Part shown: positions 1 through 22,948 of the stretch, one piece after another | Layout of the letters: each line of letters begins with the position of its first letter | How positions within the stretch are numbered: position 1 is the stretch's first letter | IMG/VR virus record: IMGVR_UViG_3300026544_000010 | Location: 1 to 36,807 of that record | DNA length: 36,807 bases | Source of the DNA: a virus | Strand: one strand, 5' to 3' | Program-made: the position numbers and the translations under genes | Notes under the pieces: generated by a model | The model's database searches: none | What the model was told of the DNA's origin: nothing | The model's input: the letters and a program-made list of their open reading frames with translations, nothing else

Positions 1-651
1 AACAGCATTTACATCCTTTTGTAATTTAATCCTAACGGGATCAATTATCTTAAGTTCTTCTTTACTTACTCCAATGTCACCTAGTAAGTCTTTATCTCTA
101 ATAACGGATCTATATAAATCGTTTATCTCGTCTTCAGATATCCTACCGTCTTTAGTAGTTTCATAATCTCTTAACCCAGCTGGCATTACTAAGAATTTAT
201 TATAAACAATCTTACTCTCTTTTATAAATTTATATATAAGCTTTATCTTAATATCTCGCTTCTTAGAGTTAGTAGTTTTAAACTTAATTTTATCTATATG
301 AGATAAGAAATATTCGTATCCTGTTTCACCATCTACATCAGGAACAAAGTCCTTTTCTTTAGTGTCAAATTTAACAAGAATTTTACCTTCCATGATTTTT
401 AAATAAAGAGCAGACAAACTTGTTATGGTGTCAAATATTTTAGGATGTATTATATCGAATTTTATATCTATAAAACCGAATCTTATATTCCTGGCTTCAC
501 TACCTGAAACAGAGAAGAACTCCACTGAGTAGAGACCTTCTGGGTCAAATGAGTTACCTGTGCTATCTAAACTACTTAGAGATTTTACTTCTCCTAAATA
601 CTTTACATCTTCTTTCGTGGGTGATATTAAATCTAAATTAATCGCTGGCAT
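1..651 (-). CDS. Phage RNA polymerase beta'-like subunit, N-terminal part (partial, runs off window start)
   Basis: The frame is open from an ATG at 651 down to base 1, giving the first 217 residues of a longer protein. An AAGGA ribosome site lies just upstream of the ATG. Residues 36-71 read DPEGLYSVEFFSVSGSEAR, then RFGFIDIKFDIIHPKI. This follows the plan of the beta' N-terminus in phage and bacterial RNA polymerases, where a 'GL(Y/F)...IFG...R.G.I.L..P..H' block forms part of the clamp. In phiKZ the virion polymerase beta' is split and its N-terminal half (gp180) sits beside the giant tail lysin gp181. Here the same neighbour starts divergently at 730, which favours the virion enzyme injected with the DNA. 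The catalytic aspartates of beta' would lie in another gene or beyond the edge. The family call is from recognised pattern and context; virion rather than non-virion is inference. Confidence 0.7.
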   Translation of the reverse strand, partial: MPAINLDLISPTKEDVKYLGEVKSLSSLDSTGNSFDPEGLYSVEFFSVSGSEARNIRFGFIDIKFDIIHPKIFDTITSLSALYLKIMEGKILVKFDTKEKDFVPDVDGETGYEYFLSHIDKIKFKTTNSKKRDIKIKLIYKFIKESKIVYNKFLVMPAGLRDYETTKDGRISEDEINDLYRSVIRDKDLLGDIGVSKEELKIIDPVRIKLQKDVNAV

Positions 652-729: not shown

Positions 730-3700
730 ATGAGTACAGAATTTGATGATTTCGACGACATAGATATGGATCTAGATGGTGATTCCGGTTTTGAAGATGG
801 CGTCGCTCCCTTAGGAGAGAAAAGAAGTCCAGTGGAAAGTGCTCTAATGGACGGTGCACGAGGTTTTAAAGACGGTTTCTTAGGAAATAGTGTACAAGAA
901 GAAATAGGTCGTGTTGCGGGAGATATAGCCCCAGCTTTAGTAGGTTCTGATGTAGCGAGTGAAATATCTAATATCTCAGGCACTTTTACAGATGAATTAA
1001 CTAAGACTACATCTGAAATGAAGAAACACGTTAGACCTATAGTTAGATCACTAAAGAAGATAGCACCAAAAACAGGTTTACTTGGTGAGATGTCAAATAA
1101 AGTTTTATCCTTATTTGACGACGGACAACAGAATACATATACCCAATCAGAAGAAAGTATATTGGATAGTAAAGTAGCTAATGCTATGAGTTCTATGTCT
1201 ATGTTTAATAAAGATGAAGAAACACAAGCAGAAGAACTAGCAAAAGAAAGTATAAAATTTAAACAGATACAGGATCAAACATCTTTATCTCAAATCATAG
1301 CCACTAATACGGATATACTAGCTAAGTTCTCAAATTCTTATAGTATGGCTTATTATAAAAAATCCCTAGAACTACAACATAGACAGGTGTTTTTATCTGC
1401 CGATATTAAAAAGATCTTAGCGTCTGGATTCGATAGATTAGGCAAGGAAGCAGATTTAATAACTAAGAATACAGCTTTACCGGATTTTGTTAAATTAAGA
1501 ACATCTGAAGAACTAGGAGAGCAACTAAGAAATAAAACAGTAGGTAAACTAGCTGATAAATTGTTTAATCAAAGTACTTGGTTAGATCATGCACAAACGA
1601 ATATAAGAGGTAGATTTACCAACTTTAGAACTAGCGTCACTGATTCATTAGGAGAAGTTGCCGGCATAGTTGAGGAAGTGAGTGATGCCAGAGAAGCTGC
1701 TGCTGATATGGAAGAAGAAGGATTAGGTGGTCAACCATCTGGTCCAGGTGGAGCTGTTGGTGATGCAGCAGCTGGCTTCGTTAAAAACGGCTTAATAGAA
1801 AAAATGGCAAATATAATAGCTGGCAATAAATATACTAATAAGATTTTTAGAACAGCTCAAGAAGCATATGTTTCAATGCCAGAACTACTAACAGGTATCC
1901 AGTCAGAAAATAAAGATAATTTCGTGGGAACGTTAGCGGGTTTCTTCGGTGGACTCATTAAGGATCCTAATAAATTTACAGATTCCTCTATAGGTGAAGA
2001 CGACTTAAACGATAACGTTATGTTTGATAAAAGAACACAAACAAGTATCGTTAAGGTTATACCTGGATTACTATCTAAAATATTAGCAGAAGTAACAAGT
2101 TTAAGAACTGGAGGAGAACCAGAAGAATTAAAGTACGATTACACCAAAGATTTATTTACTAAAAAGAAAGATTTTAAACAAACGTTTATGGCTAGTTTAA
2201 AGAAAGATGTTTATAGATCAGGAGTATCAGAACAACTAAAAACATTTATAGATGATTTATTAAAAAATAATCCAGATGTTACTATGTCTAAAGATGAGTT
2301 AGAAGAATTATCAAAAAATATATTTGCTTACCTAACTACAAATAAATCACTAACACCTATGGAGTTAGAAAATAATGGTTTTTATAAGTCCTTTAAGGAA
2401 GAAACTGTACCTAAAGTCAAACAATTATTTAATGGTACGTTGACTGATGATGAAGGTGTTTTAAATCTAGATAAAAATAAAGATATGGCTAGAGACCTCA
2501 GAATGTTAAGAGGTACTATAGATAACCCTAGAACTAAGATATTAGACTATAAAGACAATGGTAAAACAGAAGAACTTATAAATTTAGAAATATTGAAGTT
2601 TAACGACGATACTAATGAATATGATGTAGACCTACAGAAGTACTACGATTTGGTCGAGGAAGCTCTTCCAGATACCTTAACTAACGAATACTCTGCGTCA
2701 ATGCGAAGTAAATATGGAGAAGTTAAGGACGCTGATGGAAACGATGTATCTGTAAGTGAATTGTTTGATGCTGGTAAGAAAGCAATAAAAAATATTGATA
2801 AAGAGAAAATAAAGAAAGACGCTGTAAAATTTAAAGATGATATGATTGGTAAAGCTAAAGCATTAGATAAGAAAATAGCTAAACTTACATTGAATGATTT
2901 AAAAGATCTAGGAATAGAAACTAAAGAGAATGCTTTTGATTATATAGCAAAATCTTATAAAGGAAATATTCCAGAAGAAGAGCGTAAAAAAATAGATCAA
3001 AAACTCGATAAACTTTATAAGAGCAAAGGTTACAATACTGTAAAAGATTCTATTAAAAATACGTATGATTATGTTAATGATTCTACATTGGATTCATTCA
3101 TAACAGATGTAGCATCTACTAAAAAAGCTTTTTTTAGTAAAACTAAAAAAATTATAGCTAATGTAAAAAAATTAGACGTTAAGACTTTAAAAGAAAATGG
3201 ATTAGATACAAAGGAAAAAACACTAGATTGGATAATATCTAAACATAACGATCTAGCTCCAGAAACTTTATTGGCTATTGAAAAGGAATTAGGTAAGTTA
3301 TATAACTCGGATAAGGTGTTATCCGCTAGAAGTAAAATAGAATCTGTATTTAACAAAGACAATATTTTAGCATTTAAAGATGATTTAAAATCAGACGTTG
3401 GGTTAGCTAAAAGTGTTCTATCTAAAGTAAATATAAAAGAACTTAAAAACGCTGGATTAAAAACACCTGAGGATGCGTTAGATTATATAAAGGTGAAGAT
3501 ACCAGATTTAACACCAGAAGACGAAGAAAGAATTCTTAAATTTTTAACAAAGGGATATAGAGTATCTTCTACGGTGAGTGATAAAGCCAGTGAAATACAA
3601 GAAGAGTTAAAGAAACAAAGTGATAAATTTAAAGAAGACGAAGAAATAAAAGTTTCTGAGGAAGAAATAAAAAACGATACAGTAGAACAAGATAAAAACG

Positions 3701-6700
3701 AAGATTCAGAAGAACCAGGTATGTTTGAATCCGTTAAAAATAAATTTTTTAAGAAAGAGGATATAGAAGAACCAGAAGAAATAGTAGTAACATTTAATAA
3801 AAGTAATCTGTCCAAAGAAATAGGACCGGTCGAACAAGTTGATGTAGTTGTAGAAGAGGCTCCTGTTAAAAATTTCGATACATTTGATGTCGATGTAGTC
3901 GAACAAGAAGATGCTGAAGAAACAATCAACGATGAACAAATTAAGTTTGAACTATTAGACGATGAAGCTACAGAAAAAGAAAAAATAGCAGAAGTAGATC
4001 GTATACTAGCGGATATAAGGAAAAAGGACGTAGGTTTTCTTAAAGGTTTAGTAAATAGATTTTTTAGGAGTGAAGATGTTAAGAAGCCAGAAGAAGAATC
4101 GAAACCAGAAGAAGAGAAAGAGAGTGCGTTATCTGAGGAAGTAGAGAACGAAAATACAGAAGGTTTCTATACAAAGTTGTCTAAAAAGTTTTTTACATGG
4201 AAAGATAAAAAGGAATTAGCAGAAGATACTAGTGAGGTAGTTGGAGAAAAACTAGAAGAAGTCACTGATAAAATAATAGATAAGATCGATGAAAAACTCC
4301 CAGAAAAAGAAAAATATGGAGTATTTGATAGGGATAAAGACGGCGATAGAGATGGTAACGCTTTTGATATGTTGAAATTTTGGGAATCTAAAGACAATAA
4401 AGATAACGAAAATGAAAAACCACCTAAAAAGAGTAAATCTGGAAATCCTTTACTAGCTATGTTAGGTATTGGTTTCTTTGCTATTAAGAAACTATTGGGT
4501 AGTATATCCGGTGGAATCGGTGGAGTTTTAACAGTAGGTAAAACTATAACCGGAATTTTAGGTAGTATAGGATCAGGATTAGGTTTAAAAAATATAGCAA
4601 AACTTATAGCTAAACACGGATTTAAACTACCGTTTAAAATAATAGGTTCTATATGGGAGTCAGCAAAAGCTATTCCTACGGTTATAGCTGGTGCTGCTAA
4701 AGGTGCTTGGAATATCGGTAATGCGTTACTACATCCTATAGAAACACTAGGTAAAGCTGGAACTAAATTATTAGGGGCGGCTGATAAAATAATAGGTTTC
4801 TTTAAAAATCCTATTAAGTCAATAACAGCAGGACTAAAAGCTGGTAAAGGTGGAATAGGTAAACTATTTAGTAAAGGTCTAGCTAAGAAGATACCTGGAA
4901 TAGGTTTATTAATGGGTATCGGTTTTGCTATTAACAGATTTAAAGATGGTGATTATATCGGCGGGGCTATAGATTTAGTTTCGGGACTACTTAGTACAAT
5001 ACCTGGATTAGGTACACTAGGTGCCATAGGTGCTGATATGGTTAATTTTTATAGAGATTCCAATAAAACAGACGAACCTATAGATAAAACTAGAGAAGCA
5101 GCTCCTGAAACATTTACAGCCGAAGATGGTCCAGATATCCCTGTTAATATTGCTCTTAAAGAAGTTATAGTATTCACAGAGGTGGCTAATCTACCAGAAC
5201 ATTACCAGATACCTATTAGAGAGTTCGATATAGAGATAGCTAAATTAAAAATGAAGATAGAAAATACAGCTAGTGACAATAGAAAAACTCTTTATTCACA
5301 CCGCATTAAACAAGCAGAAGAGAAAAGAGAGAAACTATTAGCACAAGCTAAAAAAGATATGTCTTTAGAATCTAAAGAAGTTAGTGATGAAGTTAGAGCA
5401 GCTAATAAAGAGAAGAAAGAAAACATAGGAGAGTTTAGAAAACTAGCTACAGAATTTGGAAAGAAGTCTGTAGAAGTATCTAAAGAAAAAGATCCTATTA
5501 AGAAAGCTAAACTTAAAAAAGAGTTAGCTGTAATTAAAACTAACATGGATAAAGCTAGAGGAAAAATACCTAATAGTAAAACAGAAAAGGATAATAGTAA
5601 GAAATATAAAAGAACTATTCCTGAAGAAGCTATAGAAATAGAAAAACAAATAGTAGCTACTAAAGAAGTTATTAAAACTACTACTTCTAAAACAAAGAAA
5701 GAAGCAGCTACAGCAAGACTTAAGATGTTACTAGCTAAAAAAGAAGAACTTAAAAAGAAATCTACAAAGTTAACTGGTAAAAATATATCAAAAGCTACGG
5801 CGAAAGTAAACAATAAGATATCTGAAAAAACAAAAGCCATAGACGCTAATAAGAAAATTCTTATCGATACAGCAATTGAAGCAGGAGAGATATCTAAGAA
5901 ACTTAAAGATATGCCAGCTGGAGAAGAGAAAGACACTCTAACAGGTAAATTAGAAGAAGTTAATAAGAGAGCAGATAAAGCTAGAAAAGCTATTAAGCAA
6001 GACACGGATGAAAAAACTAAACTAACAGCAGAAGCAGATAAGATTAAAAAGGAAATTCTTGCACCCACTAAAGAATTAACTAATGCTGTTTCTAAGGATA
6101 GCGGAGTTCTTAAAGGTCCTGCTAGTGCTATAGGTTTCATTGTTAGAACAGTAGAAACTAATAATAGATATAATATAGCGGGTGTTGTTAAAGGTGAATC
6201 ATTCTTATCATTTGGTGCTTATCAGTTTACAGAGAAGAATGGTAACCTTAAGAAATTACTTAGTCTAATGTTAGGTATGAACCCTTCTTATAAAGAACAA
6301 CTTAAAACTATATTAGGTAATATGAATTCTAAAGGATACTATACTAAAAGTAGATCTGATTTAAAAATGTTCCTAAAACAAATAGGTAACGACCCAGTGT
6401 CTAAGAAAGCTCAAGATATTATGTTCTATAAGAACTATTATAAGAAAGCGGAAAAGGTATTTAAGTCAAAAGGTCATAAGAACAACTTAGTACTATTACA
6501 CTTAGTAGACGCAAACGTAAATGGAGGAATGGCTAGTGTCGCTAAACGTTTAGGAGATAAAGATACATTAGCAGATATAGAAACTGCTAGATTAGACTAT
6601 TGGAAATCTCTAAAAGGTAAATGGGCTAAGTATGCTAAAGGCTGGACTAACAGATTAAATAGAGTATCTAAGTTAGGTAAGAAGTATATTAAAGGTGACC

Positions 6701-8646
6701 TAGGAGAAGGTGGACTAGATGAAGAGTTAATGGTTAAGTCAAATGAGGATCTTAAAGATACTGAATTGAAAACAGGAGCGGCTGAATCAGAATCATCATC
6801 GGGACCAATAGGAACAATAAAAGAGATTATAAAAGATATCTTAGAATTCTTTGGTGTTAAAACGAATAATTCTGGTAAACAAGATGGTTTAGTTAGCGGT
6901 AAAGAAGCACAAGCTACCGGTAAGGATATTGAAAAGATTAAAAATGGTGGTAGTGGTGGAGCTGATGACGGATCGATTACAACAGCCGCTAGTAAGAACA
7001 ACGCTACTATTAAAAACCCAATAATAACAGACTGGAAGACTGATCAAAGATATCAATCACTAGGTGATGAAGCTAAAACGTTCTATAGTGGATTCAGTCA
7101 TTATGCTGCTCAAGAAGGAATAGGCATTATGATTCCTTGGATGGGTGGTAACAGAATGTTACAGAACCAAAAAGATTTATACGCTAAAGGTAGAAGTAAA
7201 CCCGGTAAGAAGGTGACTTGGACACTAAATTCATTCCACATAGGTGGTAGAGCTATAGATATCATTTCTAACAAAGGCTTTAAAGACACTAAGACTAATC
7301 ATAAGATATCAGTAATGATGAGAGAGTTTGCTAAAGCCAATCCTGAAATGGGTGCTAGATTCTTGAACCCTAAGAAAGATCCTAACCATATTGAATTCCC
7401 TAAAGCTAAGAAGATTAAAAGCTTTAACGTAGAGGAAAAGATTAAAGGTACTAAGGAAACTAAAGGACTAGATGAGGCGACGCAAGAGAAATACGGTAAC
7501 GCTATAGCAGCAGAACCAGTTGTTAATCAAGTATCGCAAGGAACACCTACAGGTGGAATCGCTTTAGTTAATGAAAAGAAAACAGACAAGAAGGGTAGTA
7601 ATAAAGTAGGAGACGGTGCTATATTATCTGTACCTAAAGACGATAGACTAAAAGGTGCTCACTTTGAAAGTGCTTCTGATGAGAAAATAAAAGAAGCTAA
7701 AAAAGATACCAAGATAAAAGATGGTAACAAATATGCTTTAACTAAAGGCAATACTAAAGATACGATAACTAACATAATAAAAGGTTTACCTATAGATGAT
7801 AAAGCTAAATCTATGATAGCTATGTTACCTAAAGATAAATTATCAGGAGTTATAGGTGGTTTAAATATAAATGACTCTGTAGGTAAGTTATTCGAAGGAT
7901 TATCAACAATAGCTCCTAAACTGAAAGGATTAGGTGAAGGAAGTCCGGATCTAAATAAAACAATAGGTAGTTTATTAAGTGGAGAAGGTGTTACATCTAG
8001 TACGTTAACAGTCAAGTCTTCTGTTAGAAAATCAGGTGGTGTAGTAACCCCAGATATGTTAACAGCGTTCTATGATAAGAAGAAAGGTTCTACCAATGGT
8101 ATATCTGATATCATATCTAAGATAGTTCCAACATCTAATAAGTCAGGTACAGGAGGAATATCAGATATATTAGGTAGTATAACAGGTGGTATAAAAGATA
8201 CTATAGGTGGTATTACTAAAGGTATATCAGATATAAACATTCCTAAACCTACGTCTATAACAGATAAGCTAATTAATAAACCTACAGCTAGTAGTGTTGT
8301 ACCAGCTACAACCTCAACTACTACTCCAACTGTACAGTCTATTATTAGTCCTACGAGACCAACAGCTGTAATACCTGTAGAGAAACAAAATACAGATATT
8401 TATAGTAAGGACAGATTAGGTAAATTATCTAGTATCGATGATACGTTGAAGAAGTCTCTAGAATTACATAAAGAAACTTTAGCAGCTTTAAAGGTAATGG
8501 CTAGAACTAACGCAGATAAAGGATCTATTGGAGCAAGTGTAGCAGAACCAATAACTAGTAACGTCCCAAAAGACAGAAAGAAAAAAGTGGTTGTAGAAAG
8601 GGAACCGCTCGTACAGTTAGAAAGAAAAACAGTTAAAAGTGGATAA
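730..8646 (+). CDS. Giant tail tape-measure-like protein with lysozyme-like and M15 peptidase domains (phiKZ gp181-like)
   Basis: The 2638-residue protein starts at the ATG at 730, which has AGAGGA six bases upstream; an in-frame ATG at 661 lacks a ribosome site. In order it has an acidic N-terminus, long helical regions with three copies of a ~55-residue repeat (about 718-955), a charged linker (about 955-1235), and a Gly/Ala/Ile-rich hydrophobic region (about 1239-1438) typical of tape measures. A Lys/Glu coiled coil (about 1490-1785) follows. A lysozyme- or chitosanase-like domain begins near 1797 (KGESFLSFGAYQFTEK near 1820-1835). A peptidase M15-like domain (about 2100-2220) has SFHIGGRAIDI near 2168 and DPNHIEF near 2217, matching the SxHxxGxAxDI and HxE zinc motifs. 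It probably sits in the tail and locally opens peptidoglycan during DNA entry. The tape-measure role is inferred; the M15 motif is clear. Confidence 0.75.
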   Translation: MSTEFDDFDDIDMDLDGDSGFEDGVAPLGEKRSPVESALMDGARGFKDGFLGNSVQEEIGRVAGDIAPALVGSDVASEISNISGTFTDELTKTTSEMKKHVRPIVRSLKKIAPKTGLLGEMSNKVLSLFDDGQQNTYTQSEESILDSKVANAMSSMSMFNKDEETQAEELAKESIKFKQIQDQTSLSQIIATNTDILAKFSNSYSMAYYKKSLELQHRQVFLSADIKKILASGFDRLGKEADLITKNTALPDFVKLRTSEELGEQLRNKTVGKLADKLFNQSTWLDHAQTNIRGRFTNFRTSVTDSLGEVAGIVEEVSDAREAAADMEEEGLGGQPSGPGGAVGDAAAGFVKNGLIEKMANIIAGNKYTNKIFRTAQEAYVSMPELLTGIQSENKDNFVGTLAGFFGGLIKDPNKFTDSSIGEDDLNDNVMFDKRTQTSIVKVIPGLLSKILAEVTSLRTGGEPEELKYDYTKDLFTKKKDFKQTFMASLKKDVYRSGVSEQLKTFIDDLLKNNPDVTMSKDELEELSKNIFAYLTTNKSLTPMELENNGFYKSFKEETVPKVKQLFNGTLTDDEGVLNLDKNKDMARDLRMLRGTIDNPRTKILDYKDNGKTEELINLEILKFNDDTNEYDVDLQKYYDLVEEALPDTLTNEYSASMRSKYGEVKDADGNDVSVSELFDAGKKAIKNIDKEKIKKDAVKFKDDMIGKAKALDKKIAKLTLNDLKDLGIETKENAFDYIAKSYKGNIPEEERKKIDQKLDKLYKSKGYNTVKDSIKNTYDYVNDSTLDSFITDVASTKKAFFSKTKKIIANVKKLDVKTLKENGLDTKEKTLDWIISKHNDLAPETLLAIEKELGKLYNSDKVLSARSKIESVFNKDNILAFKDDLKSDVGLAKSVLSKVNIKELKNAGLKTPEDALDYIKVKIPDLTPEDEERILKFLTKGYRVSSTVSDKASEIQEELKKQSDKFKEDEEIKVSEEEIKNDTVEQDKNEDSEEPGMFESVKNKFFKKEDIEEPEEIVVTFNKSNLSKEIGPVEQVDVVVEEAPVKNFDTFDVDVVEQEDAEETINDEQIKFELLDDEATEKEKIAEVDRILADIRKKDVGFLKGLVNRFFRSEDVKKPEEESKPEEEKESALSEEVENENTEGFYTKLSKKFFTWKDKKELAEDTSEVVGEKLEEVTDKIIDKIDEKLPEKEKYGVFDRDKDGDRDGNAFDMLKFWESKDNKDNENEKPPKKSKSGNPLLAMLGIGFFAIKKLLGSISGGIGGVLTVGKTITGILGSIGSGLGLKNIAKLIAKHGFKLPFKIIGSIWESAKAIPTVIAGAAKGAWNIGNALLHPIETLGKAGTKLLGAADKIIGFFKNPIKSITAGLKAGKGGIGKLFSKGLAKKIPGIGLLMGIGFAINRFKDGDYIGGAIDLVSGLLSTIPGLGTLGAIGADMVNFYRDSNKTDEPIDKTREAAPETFTAEDGPDIPVNIALKEVIVFTEVANLPEHYQIPIREFDIEIAKLKMKIENTASDNRKTLYSHRIKQAEEKREKLLAQAKKDMSLESKEVSDEVRAANKEKKENIGEFRKLATEFGKKSVEVSKEKDPIKKAKLKKELAVIKTNMDKARGKIPNSKTEKDNSKKYKRTIPEEAIEIEKQIVATKEVIKTTTSKTKKEAATARLKMLLAKKEELKKKSTKLTGKNISKATAKVNNKISEKTKAIDANKKILIDTAIEAGEISKKLKDMPAGEEKDTLTGKLEEVNKRADKARKAIKQDTDEKTKLTAEADKIKKEILAPTKELTNAVSKDSGVLKGPASAIGFIVRTVETNNRYNIAGVVKGESFLSFGAYQFTEKNGNLKKLLSLMLGMNPSYKEQLKTILGNMNSKGYYTKSRSDLKMFLKQIGNDPVSKKAQDIMFYKNYYKKAEKVFKSKGHKNNLVLLHLVDANVNGGMASVAKRLGDKDTLADIETARLDYWKSLKGKWAKYAKGWTNRLNRVSKLGKKYIKGDLGEGGLDEELMVKSNEDLKDTELKTGAAESESSSGPIGTIKEIIKDILEFFGVKTNNSGKQDGLVSGKEAQATGKDIEKIKNGGSGGADDGSITTAASKNNATIKNPIITDWKTDQRYQSLGDEAKTFYSGFSHYAAQEGIGIMIPWMGGNRMLQNQKDLYAKGRSKPGKKVTWTLNSFHIGGRAIDIISNKGFKDTKTNHKISVMMREFAKANPEMGARFLNPKKDPNHIEFPKAKKIKSFNVEEKIKGTKETKGLDEATQEKYGNAIAAEPVVNQVSQGTPTGGIALVNEKKTDKKGSNKVGDGAILSVPKDDRLKGAHFESASDEKIKEAKKDTKIKDGNKYALTKGNTKDTITNIIKGLPIDDKAKSMIAMLPKDKLSGVIGGLNINDSVGKLFEGLSTIAPKLKGLGEGSPDLNKTIGSLLSGEGVTSSTLTVKSSVRKSGGVVTPDMLTAFYDKKKGSTNGISDIISKIVPTSNKSGTGGISDILGSITGGIKDTIGGITKGISDINIPKPTSITDKLINKPTASSVVPATTSTTTPTVQSIISPTRPTAVIPVEKQNTDIYSKDRLGKLSSIDDTLKKSLELHKETLAALKVMARTNADKGSIGASVAEPITSNVPKDRKKKVVVEREPLVQLERKTVKSG
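2881..3588 (+). repeat. Three divergent ~55-residue repeats inside the giant tail protein
   Basis: Three copies start at 2881, 3169 and 3424 (residues about 718, 814 and 899). Each begins with a block of the form K-[LV]-x-[ILV]-x-x-LK-x-x-G-[IL]-x-T-x-E-x-x-x-D-[YW]-I. After a gap comes a second block with PE followed by a helix: IPEEERKKIDQKLDKLY in copy 1, APETLLAIEKELGKLY in copy 2, TPEDEERILKFLTKGY in copy 3. Spacing is 96 and 85 residues. The copies have diverged at DNA level, so this is an old protein-domain triplication. No function is known to me. Confidence 0.75.
3715..4224 (+). repeat. Three copies of a 22-residue amphipathic motif in the giant tail protein
   Basis: Copies start at 3715, 4030 and 4159 (residues about 996, 1101 and 1144). 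They share a glycine, an aromatic or large hydrophobic pair, about six residues, then an FF pair and an acidic-basic tail: GMFESVKNKFFKKEDIEE, GFLKGLVNRFFRSEDVKK, GFYTKLSKKFFTWKDKKE. They lie in an otherwise Glu/Lys-rich, probably disordered linker, so they look like short docking helices on a flexible tether. Confidence 0.6.
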
Positions 8647-8676
8647 ATAGCTAGTGGGATTACCCACTAGCTATTT
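8645..8676. terminator. Bidirectional terminator hairpin between convergent genes
   Basis: A perfect 14-base inverted repeat, AAATAGCTAGTGGG and CCCACTAGCTATTT, has a four-base ATTA loop. The left arm begins in the stop codon of the giant tail gene (8644-8646). The right arm contains the TAG stop of the opposing gene (8671-8673). The A/T ends of the arms give a short T run on each strand. Confidence 0.75.
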
Positions 8677-9081
8677 AGTTCTTTTGCATAGTATTCGTAT
8701 TAGATATAACAATATTATGTATGGTTGTTTATCCACTACATTTAATTTTGTATATTTTAATACAGAATCATTATTACTTATACTACTCATGTATTTGTCG
8801 TGTAGTGCAGAATTATCTAGAATCAATCTCTTATACTCACGTAAGTCAATTCTATTAAATGCTATATATGTAAATATATCATTAAACTCTGACAGCACCT
8901 TAGCATATTCTTCAGATATTATAGCGTTCTTTATTTCTGAATATCCTTCTTCTGTAAAGATACCCGAAGGTATCATTTTACTTTCGTAGAATTTCAACAC
9001 GTCTTCTAAATATAAGAATTTATTATCACTAGTGTTTGCATCCAGATAATCATTTATACACGCTCTAAATTTTTCTATCAT
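8671..9081 (-). CDS. Small protein of unknown function, coupled to the polymerase beta gene
   Basis: The 136-residue protein begins MIEKFRACINDYLDANTSDN and is acidic and mostly helical, with no signal peptide or membrane segment. Its ATG overlaps the TGA of the upstream polymerase beta gene (ATGA at 9078-9081), so the two are probably translationally coupled. It has no clear ribosome site of its own. In phiKZ a small gene (gp179) lies between the virion polymerase beta (gp178) and beta' (gp180) genes, so this could be its counterpart. That is inference from order alone. A role as an accessory factor of the polymerase would fit but is not shown by any motif. Confidence 0.75.
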   Translation of the reverse strand: MIEKFRACINDYLDANTSDNKFLYLEDVLKFYESKMIPSGIFTEEGYSEIKNAIISEEYAKVLSEFNDIFTYIAFNRIDLREYKRLILDNSALHDKYMSSISNNDSVLKYTKLNVVDKQPYIILLYLIRILCKRTK

Positions 9082-10763
9082 AAGTCACCTACCTCATCTA
9101 TCTCTTCATTGTTAACTATTTCCATAGCACTAAAGTCATCTACTACTCTACCGTTAAGACAGATATCTAAATAATCTACTTTACGTTTTATACGTGGATA
9201 TGGAGCTATCCTATTAGTAATCTCATTAAACTCAGCAAATACATTTATCTTAGCTTTAGGTGTAGGATATTTTTTAGGTAGGTTATATAAACTACCTAAA
9301 TATAAATCCGTACCAACAATCTTTCTAGTATTAGAAGGGAATGTATTATTAGGTTCTTTAACTACACCTTTACCTCTTTCTTGTAGTTCTAGTATACCTG
9401 TTATCTTACTAAACATACTATCTGTAGTAGAATCAATAGGAGTTACACATATATTCATAGCACCACTTTTAGTAATACCGAATATAGTTTTACTACTAAG
9501 TCGTCTCGTCATTAACTTATTTATATTCTGTATAGTTAACTGTTTATTCTTAGACATGTTATTAATATCTCTAATCATTGTGTTAACGCCATATATAAAG
9601 TTAAACATTAGATAGTATAGAATGTCTATATATCTATTATAGATATTATTAGTATACTCTTTACCTTTTAAAAGGTATTCTGAATACTTATCTATCATGT
9701 GTACTAACAAGTCATAATAATCGTTTACATAAATATCACTCTCTTCTAGTTTCTCTTGTACGATAGAGTCTAGATAAGATTCTATTAGAGTGTACTTATC
9801 CATGATTAAGTCATACCCTCTACTAGGAATATAAAAGTCTTTATATGCAATTCTACCTATTATAACTCTCCATTCAGATAACTCTATATCTAAACCAGCA
9901 TGTAACGATTCTGCAATGTTAGCTGCTGTTTTAGGTAATACATCGAATGTATATATAATAGTACCTGCCATTTTCTCAGCTAGTAAAGAGTTCTGTTTCT
10001 TAGGTATACAAATATGAACATCATGTGGTACGTAATCTATATCCTTAAGACTCTTAGGTTTTATCTTATTCGATTGATAAATATCGTGAGTCTCTTTTAA
10101 TTTAATAGCCTCTTCATGACTTAATGTGAATATAGGTTCTACATTACAATACTTCTTAAAGGATTCTTTAAAACCATACTTACCAATTATAAACAACGTA
10201 ACGGGCGTAACCACTTTACCTAATAGGTTTTGTTTCTTTTCATCCAGACTAGCAATACCGTCTGAATACACAATTTCAGCAATCACACTGTTACCATTCT
10301 TAATAATGTTTCTAGTGGTGTTTCTAAAGAATTGTTTGGTTTTTAATAGTCTCACAAATACTTCGTTATTAGATGGACTAATTACAGTATCCGTTAAGAC
10401 GGGAACAATGGCGTATTTGGTACCGGATATTTCCATTATACCAGCATCTCTAACAAACGGCATATATAGATACTTTCTAGGTATCTTTTCACCGTCATAC
10501 TCGAAGAAGTACTCGTATAATAATACATCACTACCAGATAGATCGTGGTTAGGTTTATTTCTTTTTAACTGGTACTCTTCCTTAGGGGAAAGTTTTCTAT
10601 ATCCGTGATATGTGAATCTCGGATTAACAGACTTCATAGCAGAAATAATAACCTTATCTAAATACGCGGGTGCTTTAGGTACTTCTTTGGTTGCAAAACC
10701 ATCTATCATTGTTTGGTTTGCTTGTGGTTGTTCTTTAAACAACTTTTCTAAAACAGAATTCAT
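9078..10763 (-). CDS. Phage RNA polymerase beta-like subunit, N-terminal part (phiKZ gp178-like)
   Basis: The 561-residue protein starts at the ATG at 10763, with AAAAGGAG five bases upstream; the codon before it is TTG, too close to the ribosome site to be the start. Residues 102-125 read PFVRDAGIMEISGTKYAIVP and onward, resembling the beta N-terminal block in which a short strand pair leads into 'GxFxINGxxRVIVxQ'. Near residue 460 comes LQERGKGVVKEPNNTFPSNT, which would fall in a fork or lobe region. The length equals roughly the first half of bacterial beta, as expected for phiKZ-like enzymes whose beta and beta' are each split in two. With the beta'-like gene at 1-651 it would form part of the virion polymerase that transcribes early genes. 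The subunit call is fairly secure; the virion assignment is inferred. Confidence 0.65.
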   Translation of the reverse strand: MNSVLEKLFKEQPQANQTMIDGFATKEVPKAPAYLDKVIISAMKSVNPRFTYHGYRKLSPKEEYQLKRNKPNHDLSGSDVLLYEYFFEYDGEKIPRKYLYMPFVRDAGIMEISGTKYAIVPVLTDTVISPSNNEVFVRLLKTKQFFRNTTRNIIKNGNSVIAEIVYSDGIASLDEKKQNLLGKVVTPVTLFIIGKYGFKESFKKYCNVEPIFTLSHEEAIKLKETHDIYQSNKIKPKSLKDIDYVPHDVHICIPKKQNSLLAEKMAGTIIYTFDVLPKTAANIAESLHAGLDIELSEWRVIIGRIAYKDFYIPSRGYDLIMDKYTLIESYLDSIVQEKLEESDIYVNDYYDLLVHMIDKYSEYLLKGKEYTNNIYNRYIDILYYLMFNFIYGVNTMIRDINNMSKNKQLTIQNINKLMTRRLSSKTIFGITKSGAMNICVTPIDSTTDSMFSKITGILELQERGKGVVKEPNNTFPSNTRKIVGTDLYLGSLYNLPKKYPTPKAKINVFAEFNEITNRIAPYPRIKRKVDYLDICLNGRVVDDFSAMEIVNNEEIDEVGDL

Positions 10764-10770
10764 CAACGCT

Positions 10771-20812: not shown

Positions 20813-22948
20813 ATGCTTTTTACAGAACCATATACTAGAGATGTTTTAAATCTTACAAAATCAATAGTTGTATATTTACATTCAGAGTCCGTTTCAGTAA
20901 ATATAGAGTTACAAAATATTTACGGGACTAGCTACCGTTTTATCGCAGAGGATATAACAACTTGGAAACATTATTTGAACATGACAGGAGAAAAACATCA
21001 AATAGATACACAACTACTTCCTGATGGTATACAAGTTTATGTTACGGAACTAATGGGATACAGAGATCTGAATAAGCAATTATTAGAAGATTATCCAGTT
21101 ACTAGAGAAATACTAAAAAGAATGGGTGATGAGTATGATGAGTTATTAGATAAATATCCTGACTTTGAGACATTAATCAGAGGTATAGTGTACCCTGTAG
21201 ATATGTCTGTGTTAGTGAAAGCCAAAGACGGAGATATACTAGCTTATAATCATAAATTAGTAGAAAAACAAGAGCATACATTAATAGCAGAAGTACAGAA
21301 AGAAGTAAAAAGATACCTTTTAAGATGGCATATAGCTGAATACACCATAACAGATGAATATTACATACCATCTTTAATAGCGGGAATGACTAGTAGTATA
21401 TTATTAAAAATTAATAATCATAGAATGAGTAAGCAAGGAACTGAAGAGATACATTCTGTACTTATGAATGAATTCTTTAAATCGCACTTATCTCTACAAA
21501 GAGATGTAGAAATTTTATCAGAAGATATAAAACTATGGTTATATAAGAATTTAAGATACATAATAAACCACGTTGGTAAGGATAGTACTTTAGATCTTTT
21601 AGTTAAAGAAGTATTTAGAAAATCTGGCTTATACGTCAAAGAAGCTGTTATAAGAAATAGACTACCTATAGAATTTAATCAAACTAATTTATCTAAACCC
21701 TCATATTCTAAAAATACGGATAACATATTTTACGCGGAAAACGGAGATTCGTGCAATATAACTTCTAGTATAACTAATGATTTAATATTATTTAAAGAAA
21801 TAGATGAAGTTACGTACGATACAAAAACATTGATTATAAACGATGAGCGATATAGAAGAAAATTGACAAACGATGTAGCAACACCTATTAATACATTAGA
21901 AAGAACCAAAGTTATAACTATAGAATATGAAAATGCGTATAACGTTTTTCCAGCAAACGTACCAGAAATCACTCTTGAAAATTGGTTCCATATGGGTATG
22001 GTGTTAAATCAAAATAGATATGAGACATTTGTAGACCCTAATACTAAAATAACATATTATCTTAGAGAAACAGATGCTATTAAATTAGTTTTAAAACATC
22101 TGCTTATTTTAATTAATAAAGAAGAACTTTTATTAACTAATTTAACATTATCAAATATACCTAATCATGTATATAGTACAGATAACTTAATCACTGATTT
22201 ACCGGACGTTGTAGAGACCGTAAATGCATTGTTGGATGAAATGGTTATATACGACGGAACAAATACAGAAGAAGTCATAGATTCTATTATAAAATTTTAT
22301 AATCTTTTATGGGTATATGCTAACGACGAAGATAACCCGGTAATACGATCGGATATAGAATTAATATATGAAAGAATAAGAGAACCCGTAGTTGTTAGTT
22401 TATCGAATACACCTAAATCTATTTTAGAAATAACTGAAAATATTCCGTTTAACTACACAACAAACTATGACTATAGATTATCGGTTATAGAAATGACAAG
22501 AGTGTTTACAGGGATAAATATAGATAAGTCTATGGAAATAGATAATATATTAAGCAAGTTTAGAAACATCATAGATAAACTTACGTCGTATACTACACAA
22601 ACATTAGATGAGAATTTATACGCATCTGTTAGTGCAGCTAGTGACGACATAGGTGTACTGAGAGACGCTAATATAATGACACCTATTGATTCTAGATTCT
22701 ATTGTTTAGAATTACTGGATTTAACAGTGAATGTACAAGCTGATGACGCTAAAGATAAAATTTATGTAAGTAATATGAATATATCTAAAGCTAATCTATC
22801 AGGACCACTACAACCAAGAATGGATTTAGATATTGTTAATGAAGAACTCGTTGAGTTTAAAGTTATGTCTAATATGGTACTGCTAACAGATCCCGATGCT
22901 GAACAACATGCTAACGATTTACCACACGCATTACCGCATCAATTTTAA
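20813..22948 (+). CDS. Large putative virion structural protein, unknown family
   Basis: This gene encodes 711 residues starting MLFTEPYTRDVLNLTKSIVV, with AAGGAA seven bases upstream. It has no membrane segments, signal peptide or low-complexity tracts and no enzyme motif. The N-terminal 300 residues look helical with conserved-looking Tyr/Leu packing; the rest mixes strands and helices. The short 32-base divergent gap with the portal gene suggests shared timing with virion assembly genes. Possible roles are a tail, neck or baseplate wedge protein. It ends next to a palindromic terminator shared with the opposing unit. Confidence 0.6.
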   Translation: MLFTEPYTRDVLNLTKSIVVYLHSESVSVNIELQNIYGTSYRFIAEDITTWKHYLNMTGEKHQIDTQLLPDGIQVYVTELMGYRDLNKQLLEDYPVTREILKRMGDEYDELLDKYPDFETLIRGIVYPVDMSVLVKAKDGDILAYNHKLVEKQEHTLIAEVQKEVKRYLLRWHIAEYTITDEYYIPSLIAGMTSSILLKINNHRMSKQGTEEIHSVLMNEFFKSHLSLQRDVEILSEDIKLWLYKNLRYIINHVGKDSTLDLLVKEVFRKSGLYVKEAVIRNRLPIEFNQTNLSKPSYSKNTDNIFYAENGDSCNITSSITNDLILFKEIDEVTYDTKTLIINDERYRRKLTNDVATPINTLERTKVITIEYENAYNVFPANVPEITLENWFHMGMVLNQNRYETFVDPNTKITYYLRETDAIKLVLKHLLILINKEELLLTNLTLSNIPNHVYSTDNLITDLPDVVETVNALLDEMVIYDGTNTEEVIDSIIKFYNLLWVYANDEDNPVIRSDIELIYERIREPVVVSLSNTPKSILEITENIPFNYTTNYDYRLSVIEMTRVFTGINIDKSMEIDNILSKFRNIIDKLTSYTTQTLDENLYASVSAASDDIGVLRDANIMTPIDSRFYCLELLDLTVNVQADDAKDKIYVSNMNISKANLSGPLQPRMDLDIVNEELVEFKVMSNMVLLTDPDAEQHANDLPHALPHQF

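Follow-up and report, generated by a model that had tools for sequence, protein, structure and literature searches.

The window, by which we mean the whole stretch of 36,807 nucleotides of viral DNA that we analysed, begins with part of a polymerase gene, followed by a divergent giant open reading frame.

1 to 651, minus strand: virion RNA polymerase subunit gene (phiKZ gp180 counterpart), N-terminal 217 amino acids, phrog_2986 at E 8e-61
730 to 8646, plus strand: giant phiKZ gp181-type tail protein, 2638 amino acids
745 to 3063, plus strand: conserved gp181-type N-terminal region, residues 6-778

The 2638-residue open reading frame is a real gene. It starts at the ATG at position 730, which is preceded by a ribosome site (aggaaataag), and it stops at 8646. 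The family phrog_3201 ('tail fiber') covers residues 6-778 at E 2e-52. A profile built from the first 800 residues of 17 gp181-type proteins, with the window protein excluded, matches at E 1e-75, and shuffled copies gave E-values of at least 0.35. The polymerase subunit gene lies upstream and is divergent, matching the gp180-gp181 layout of phiKZ, and the same arrangement is found in the other jumbo phages that we compared. Because of the N-terminal matches and the divergent polymerase neighbor, as in phiKZ, the protein is, judged from sequence, both the positional and the sequence counterpart of phiKZ gp181. A preliminary description of this DNA had already called it a gp181-type protein, and these results agree.

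phiKZ gp181 is described as a baseplate glycosidase that punctures cells, and its muralytic activity has been measured (PMC5380687). Its phrog_3201 relatives, the structural peptidoglycan hydrolases of jumbo phages, share with the window protein the N-terminal region, the polymerase-adjacent locus and a C-terminal hydrolase. However, whereas phiKZ gp181 contains a single SLT transglycosylase domain, Pfam found no SLT match in the window, and the protein instead contains a GH46/VgrG3-like domain and an M15 domain. Lacking SLT makes the protein a variant within the gp181-type lysins rather than an outsider, because other members also lack it and have GH19, M23 or no recognized hydrolase. Matches to Enolase_N and DUF5938, outside the two hydrolase domains, were below threshold and we regard them as chance.

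The two domains are separated by a linker:

6112 to 6684, plus strand: GH46/VgrG3-like glycosidase domain with a lysozyme fold, residues 1795-1985
6154 to 6156, plus strand: Glu1809, likely catalytic acid
6196 to 6198, plus strand: Glu1823, candidate second catalytic acidic residue
6685 to 7008, plus strand: linker between the glycosidase and M15 domains
about 7009 to 7420, plus strand: M15-type zinc peptidase domain, residues 2094-2230
7153 to 7155, plus strand: Arg2142, candidate substrate-binding residue
7237 to 7239, plus strand: His2170, predicted zinc ligand
7258 to 7260, plus strand: Asp2177, predicted zinc ligand
7378 to 7380, plus strand: Asp2217, predicted catalytic base (in DPNH)
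7387 to 7389, plus strand: His2220, predicted zinc ligand

Single-sequence searches of Pfam and PDB were weak for both domains, and profiles of relatives were required. Using the neighboring polymerase gene as bait, we obtained 13 uncultivated loci, one of which (L020) encodes the same glycosidase and M15 pair, with 44% identity over 490 residues. A search with the glycosidase alignment found another protein with both domains (L034). Both are from uncultivated phages, and in both the key residues of the two domains are intact. A tblastn search of phage records with the glycosidase domain found nothing, and no relatives were found in the genome contigs searched. The window protein, L020 and L034 are about 34-36% identical in the N-terminal region and 43-60% identical in the catalytic domains, and they form one clade in a tree of the N-terminal region (support 100/100). 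A larger enclosing clade (100/98) adds L021, which has only the M15 domain, and L022, which has only a VgrG3-like domain; these two are long branches and their exact placement is less certain.

The first domain is best named GH46/VgrG3-like, and not a member of GH46, because the window sequence alone falls below the Pfam cut-off (E 0.002, 18 bits versus a curated cut-off of 27) and it is two individual relatives that pass a cut-off, while a profile of relatives reaches GH46 structures. A profile built from five sequences (the window, L020, L034, L035 and L022) matches the solved structures of GH46 chitosanases at E 1.2e-6 and the VgrG3 lysozyme at 7e-4. L035 clears the GH46 cut-off (42 bits) and L022 clears the VgrG3-like cut-off (128 bits, 4e-37). 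The AlphaFold2 model of the domain gives Z-scores of 11-13.5 to GH46 structures (13.5 over 185 residues) and 9.3-9.5 to VgrG3. Glu1809 is invariant in 5/5 aligned sequences. Glu1823 is common to the window, L020 and L034; L035 and L022 have acidic residues nearby whose exact equivalence is uncertain. The domain as a whole is kept in L020, L034 and L035. The likeness to the C-terminal lysozyme of Vibrio cholerae VgrG3 and to GH46 chitosanases is one of fold and profile, as those proteins are a type VI secretion effector or secreted enzymes and not gp181-type tail proteins. By analogy, the likeliest activity is that of a muramidase, because of the relation to VgrG3 and the role of the gp181-type family. 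The L035 protein (4531-9867, plus strand), which belongs to another phage and is tape-measure-like (phrog_167), has a clear GH46 domain towards its C-terminus.

As predicted from sequence and structural models, the second domain is an M15-fold zinc peptidase that is nearest to the L-Ala-D-Glu endopeptidases. PHROG endolysin families match it at 2.6e-11 and 8e-8, and a profile from the window, L020 and L034 reaches Ply500 (4e-4) and LysB4. The Pfam M15 models stay below their curated cut-offs (Peptidase_M15_4, 13 bits versus 25; VanY, 13.8 versus 25). By fold, the domain matches the T5 L-Ala-D-Glu peptidase (Z 7.8), LysECD7 (7.4) and ChiX (7.1). All of the top fold matches have the M15/hedgehog fold, with every M15 Z-score below 8; we rejected the hedgehog matches as a clue to function, since hedgehog merely shares its fold with M15. 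The predicted zinc ligands of the HxxxxxxD...H pattern (His2170, Asp2177 and His2220) and the predicted catalytic Asp2217 are kept in all three proteins, as is Arg2142, and His2170 and Asp2177 also align with Ply500. The protein contains a single instance of the spaced motif S.H..G.A.D-x(30-60)-D..H, which was found in 0 of 2000 shuffles. A five-sequence M15 alignment that included L021 and L001 was poor beyond the first His/Asp motif and was left out of the analysis. The domain thus resembles T5 endolysin, Ply500, LysB4, LysECD7 and ChiX in its fold, spaced His/Asp/His and catalytic Asp, but those are lysis or secretion enzymes, whereas here the M15 domain is part of a tail protein. Based on these matches, the predicted peptidase most likely cleaves the L-Ala-D-Glu bond of the stem peptide.

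The linker has AlphaFold2 pLDDT values below 50, is predicted to be disordered and is poorly conserved in the alignment. Confidence in the models is modest (mean pLDDT 58 and 61) and drops to low values near parts of the two active sites. With the model of both domains as query, Foldseek returned nothing at or below E 0.001; the structural matches were taken from VIA-align rows and combined with the profile evidence.

These results uphold the main proposal of the preliminary description, that one giant tail protein carries two different hydrolase domains: profiles, fold, key residues and the relatives L020 and L034 all point the same way. The lysozyme- or chitosanase-like domain that it had placed at about 6121-6700 and the M15 domain at about 7030-7400 were both found, with slightly different boundaries. 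The domain profile search that it proposed reaches GH46 and VgrG3 from one domain and Ply500 from the other when relatives are included. Its suggestion that one chain could cut both types of bond is plausible in light of the sequences and models, because a glycan-cutting domain is joined to an M15 domain with the expected residues, also in two relatives.

The C-terminal hydrolase varies widely among gp181-type proteins. We searched the C-terminal 1000 residues of relatives with Pfam and found SLT in phiKZ, SPN3US, PCH45, RVTF4, Moabite, FBKp24, D6, Eowyn, pVa-21, CR5 and ChrisDB, and in the loci L023 and L028. GH19 is present in FLC6, FLC9, Goslar (below the cut-off) and EL, and M23 in XC31 and pir03, the latter already listed by its authors (PMC7765460). 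In L024 and L031, the last 1000 residues have no hydrolase recognizable by Pfam, and lysin function in these two may have been lost, moved or gone unrecognized. L024, L025 and L031, together with the near-copies L026, L027 and L032, make up one clade of gp181-type proteins, with L025 placed by similarity. As read from these sequences, the hydrolase of the family is swappable: SLT, GH19, M23, M15 alone, a VgrG3-like domain alone, the pair, or none recognized. Most relatives of the window protein carry just a single wall-cutting domain.

Phage EL of Pseudomonas and the Erwinia phages Joad and RisingSun also have gp181-type proteins. EL gp183 and Joad share a conserved domain that has no name and contains the motifs HxxGLALD and GGHIH (L019, 6075-6527, minus strand, and L037, 2477-2920, plus strand); it comes after the GH19 domain in EL gp183. 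The second domain of EL has no Pfam or PDB profile match, but its motifs suggest that it may be M15-like, and EL and Joad may provide another example of a dual lysin. The order in EL, a glycosidase and then possibly an M15-like domain, would be that of the window protein, although the EL glycosidase belongs to another family. Another pairing of a glycosidase with M15 is found in L001 (7530-8663, plus strand), a phage protein of 377 residues with GH108 and M15_4 that seems to be a stand-alone lysin.

It is highly likely, in our view, that the window encodes a virion-associated tail lysin of gp181 type, from a phiKZ-like jumbo phage, in which a GH46/VgrG3-like muramidase and an M15 endopeptidase, both cutting the cell wall, have taken the place of SLT. 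Judging from sequence and models, one chain probably cuts both the glycan and the peptide bonds of the host wall. Its location in the virion is assumed by analogy with phiKZ gp181, and we infer the enzyme activity, the exact bond specificity and the benefit of the pairing. The host is likely Gram-negative, because the major capsid protein is about 25-28% identical to those of phages of Gram-negative hosts.

We postulate that in this phage lineage the usual SLT domain was replaced by the muramidase, followed by the M15 zinc endopeptidase. Upon tail contraction, the tip would deliver both flexibly linked domains to the periplasm, where the muramidase would cut glycan strands and the M15 domain would cut stem peptides, most likely at L-Ala-D-Glu. 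The two cuts could allow a small local hole to open faster, or to open in a more crosslinked wall.

Several other explanations can be considered. The M15 domain could be a D,D- or L,D-carboxypeptidase, similar to VanY or LdcB, that trims stem peptides without opening the wall. VanY and LdcB share the M15 fold (Z 4.8-5.5) and VanY is among the weak Pfam matches, but these scores are below those of T5 peptidase, LysECD7 and ChiX, the L-Ala-D-Glu endopeptidases rank higher by profile as well as by fold, and the PHROG matches are endolysins, so that we find this unlikely. Alternatively, peptidoglycan hydrolysis could be the work of a single domain, the other having become a binding or structural module. 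Relatives get by with a single domain, and the low model confidence around parts of both active sites would fit such a loss. Nevertheless, the window protein, L020 and L034 retain the key residues of the two domains even though they have diverged in both the N-terminal region and the catalytic domains, and we think that loss of one activity is quite improbable.

The nearest solved structures to the first domain are chitosanases, which might mean that it cuts another polymer, such as a polysaccharide of the capsule or a chitosan-like one, located outside the wall, and that each domain works on a layer of its own. This is very unlikely, as the peptidoglycan lysozyme VgrG3 belongs to the same superfamily, L022 from the same clade is clearly VgrG3-like, and other gp181-type proteins fill this slot with wall-degrading domains. 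The preliminary description had also suggested a different peptide crosslink in the host as a possible reason for the second domain. We found no support for an unusual host wall in this analysis, and the idea is unsupported because the nearest M15 fold relatives cut the stem peptide and not the crosslink. L-Ala-D-Glu endopeptidases cut near the base of the stem peptide, at a bond that is present whatever the crosslink. In addition, T5 endolysin, LysECD7 and ChiX have ties to Gram-negative bacteria, by origin or by target, and we view an adaptation to an unusual crosslink as extremely improbable.

The reading that we prefer, a muramidase paired with an endopeptidase in one tail lysin, has few parallels. 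Virion lysins with two catalytic domains are very few and those known are mostly from Gram-positive phages, and virion endopeptidases have been reported almost only from phages of Gram-positive hosts (PMC5380687, PMC6116005). SP-beta CwlP, phi11 Gp49, phiMR11 Gp61, HydH5 and phage G gp183, which has LytD plus M23 (PMC8570332), all from phages of Gram-positive hosts, each combine a pair of distinct wall-cutting domains within a tail protein, as in the window. However, these proteins and their domain families (e.g., amidase plus lysozyme, or LytD plus M23) are unrelated to those described here. In a limited literature search, we found no description of an M15 domain, or of a GH46/VgrG3-like and M15 pair, in a gp181-type protein. 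It seems to us an even call whether a deep, uncultivated phiKZ-like branch exchanged one transglycosylase for a paired muramidase and stem-peptide endopeptidase, providing phages of Gram-negative bacteria with a dual virion lysin, with a separate GH19 and M15-like instance in EL-type phages.

This protein and the domain swaps among gp181-type proteins show that phiKZ-like phages have, in their tail lysin, an exchangeable slot able to hold peptidases and pairs. As a natural cutter of two bonds, the window protein would be useful for studying wall penetration by jumbo phages, and a testable laboratory case is available in phage EL of Pseudomonas aeruginosa.

The gene order downstream of the giant protein is rearranged. 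The gene after gp181 in relatives is gp182-like and has the same orientation. In the window, minus-strand genes follow (8671-9081 and a phrog_2943 polymerase at 9078-10766; rearranged region 8647-10766), and a 711-residue open reading frame at 20813-22948 (phrog_3222) may be a relocated gp182.

An additional module is located upstream of the lysin domains:

4870 to 5115, plus strand: hydrophobic, hairpin-like IPGIG...IPGLG module, residues about 1381-1462

By tblastn, this module matches baseplate-region proteins of Acidovorax phage ACP17 and Synechococcus phages (L038, L039), with up to 45% identity and an E-value of 7e-11. In those proteins, judged by eye, it sits before lysozyme-like or SleB-like segments. 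The module is possibly a shared membrane-active hairpin.
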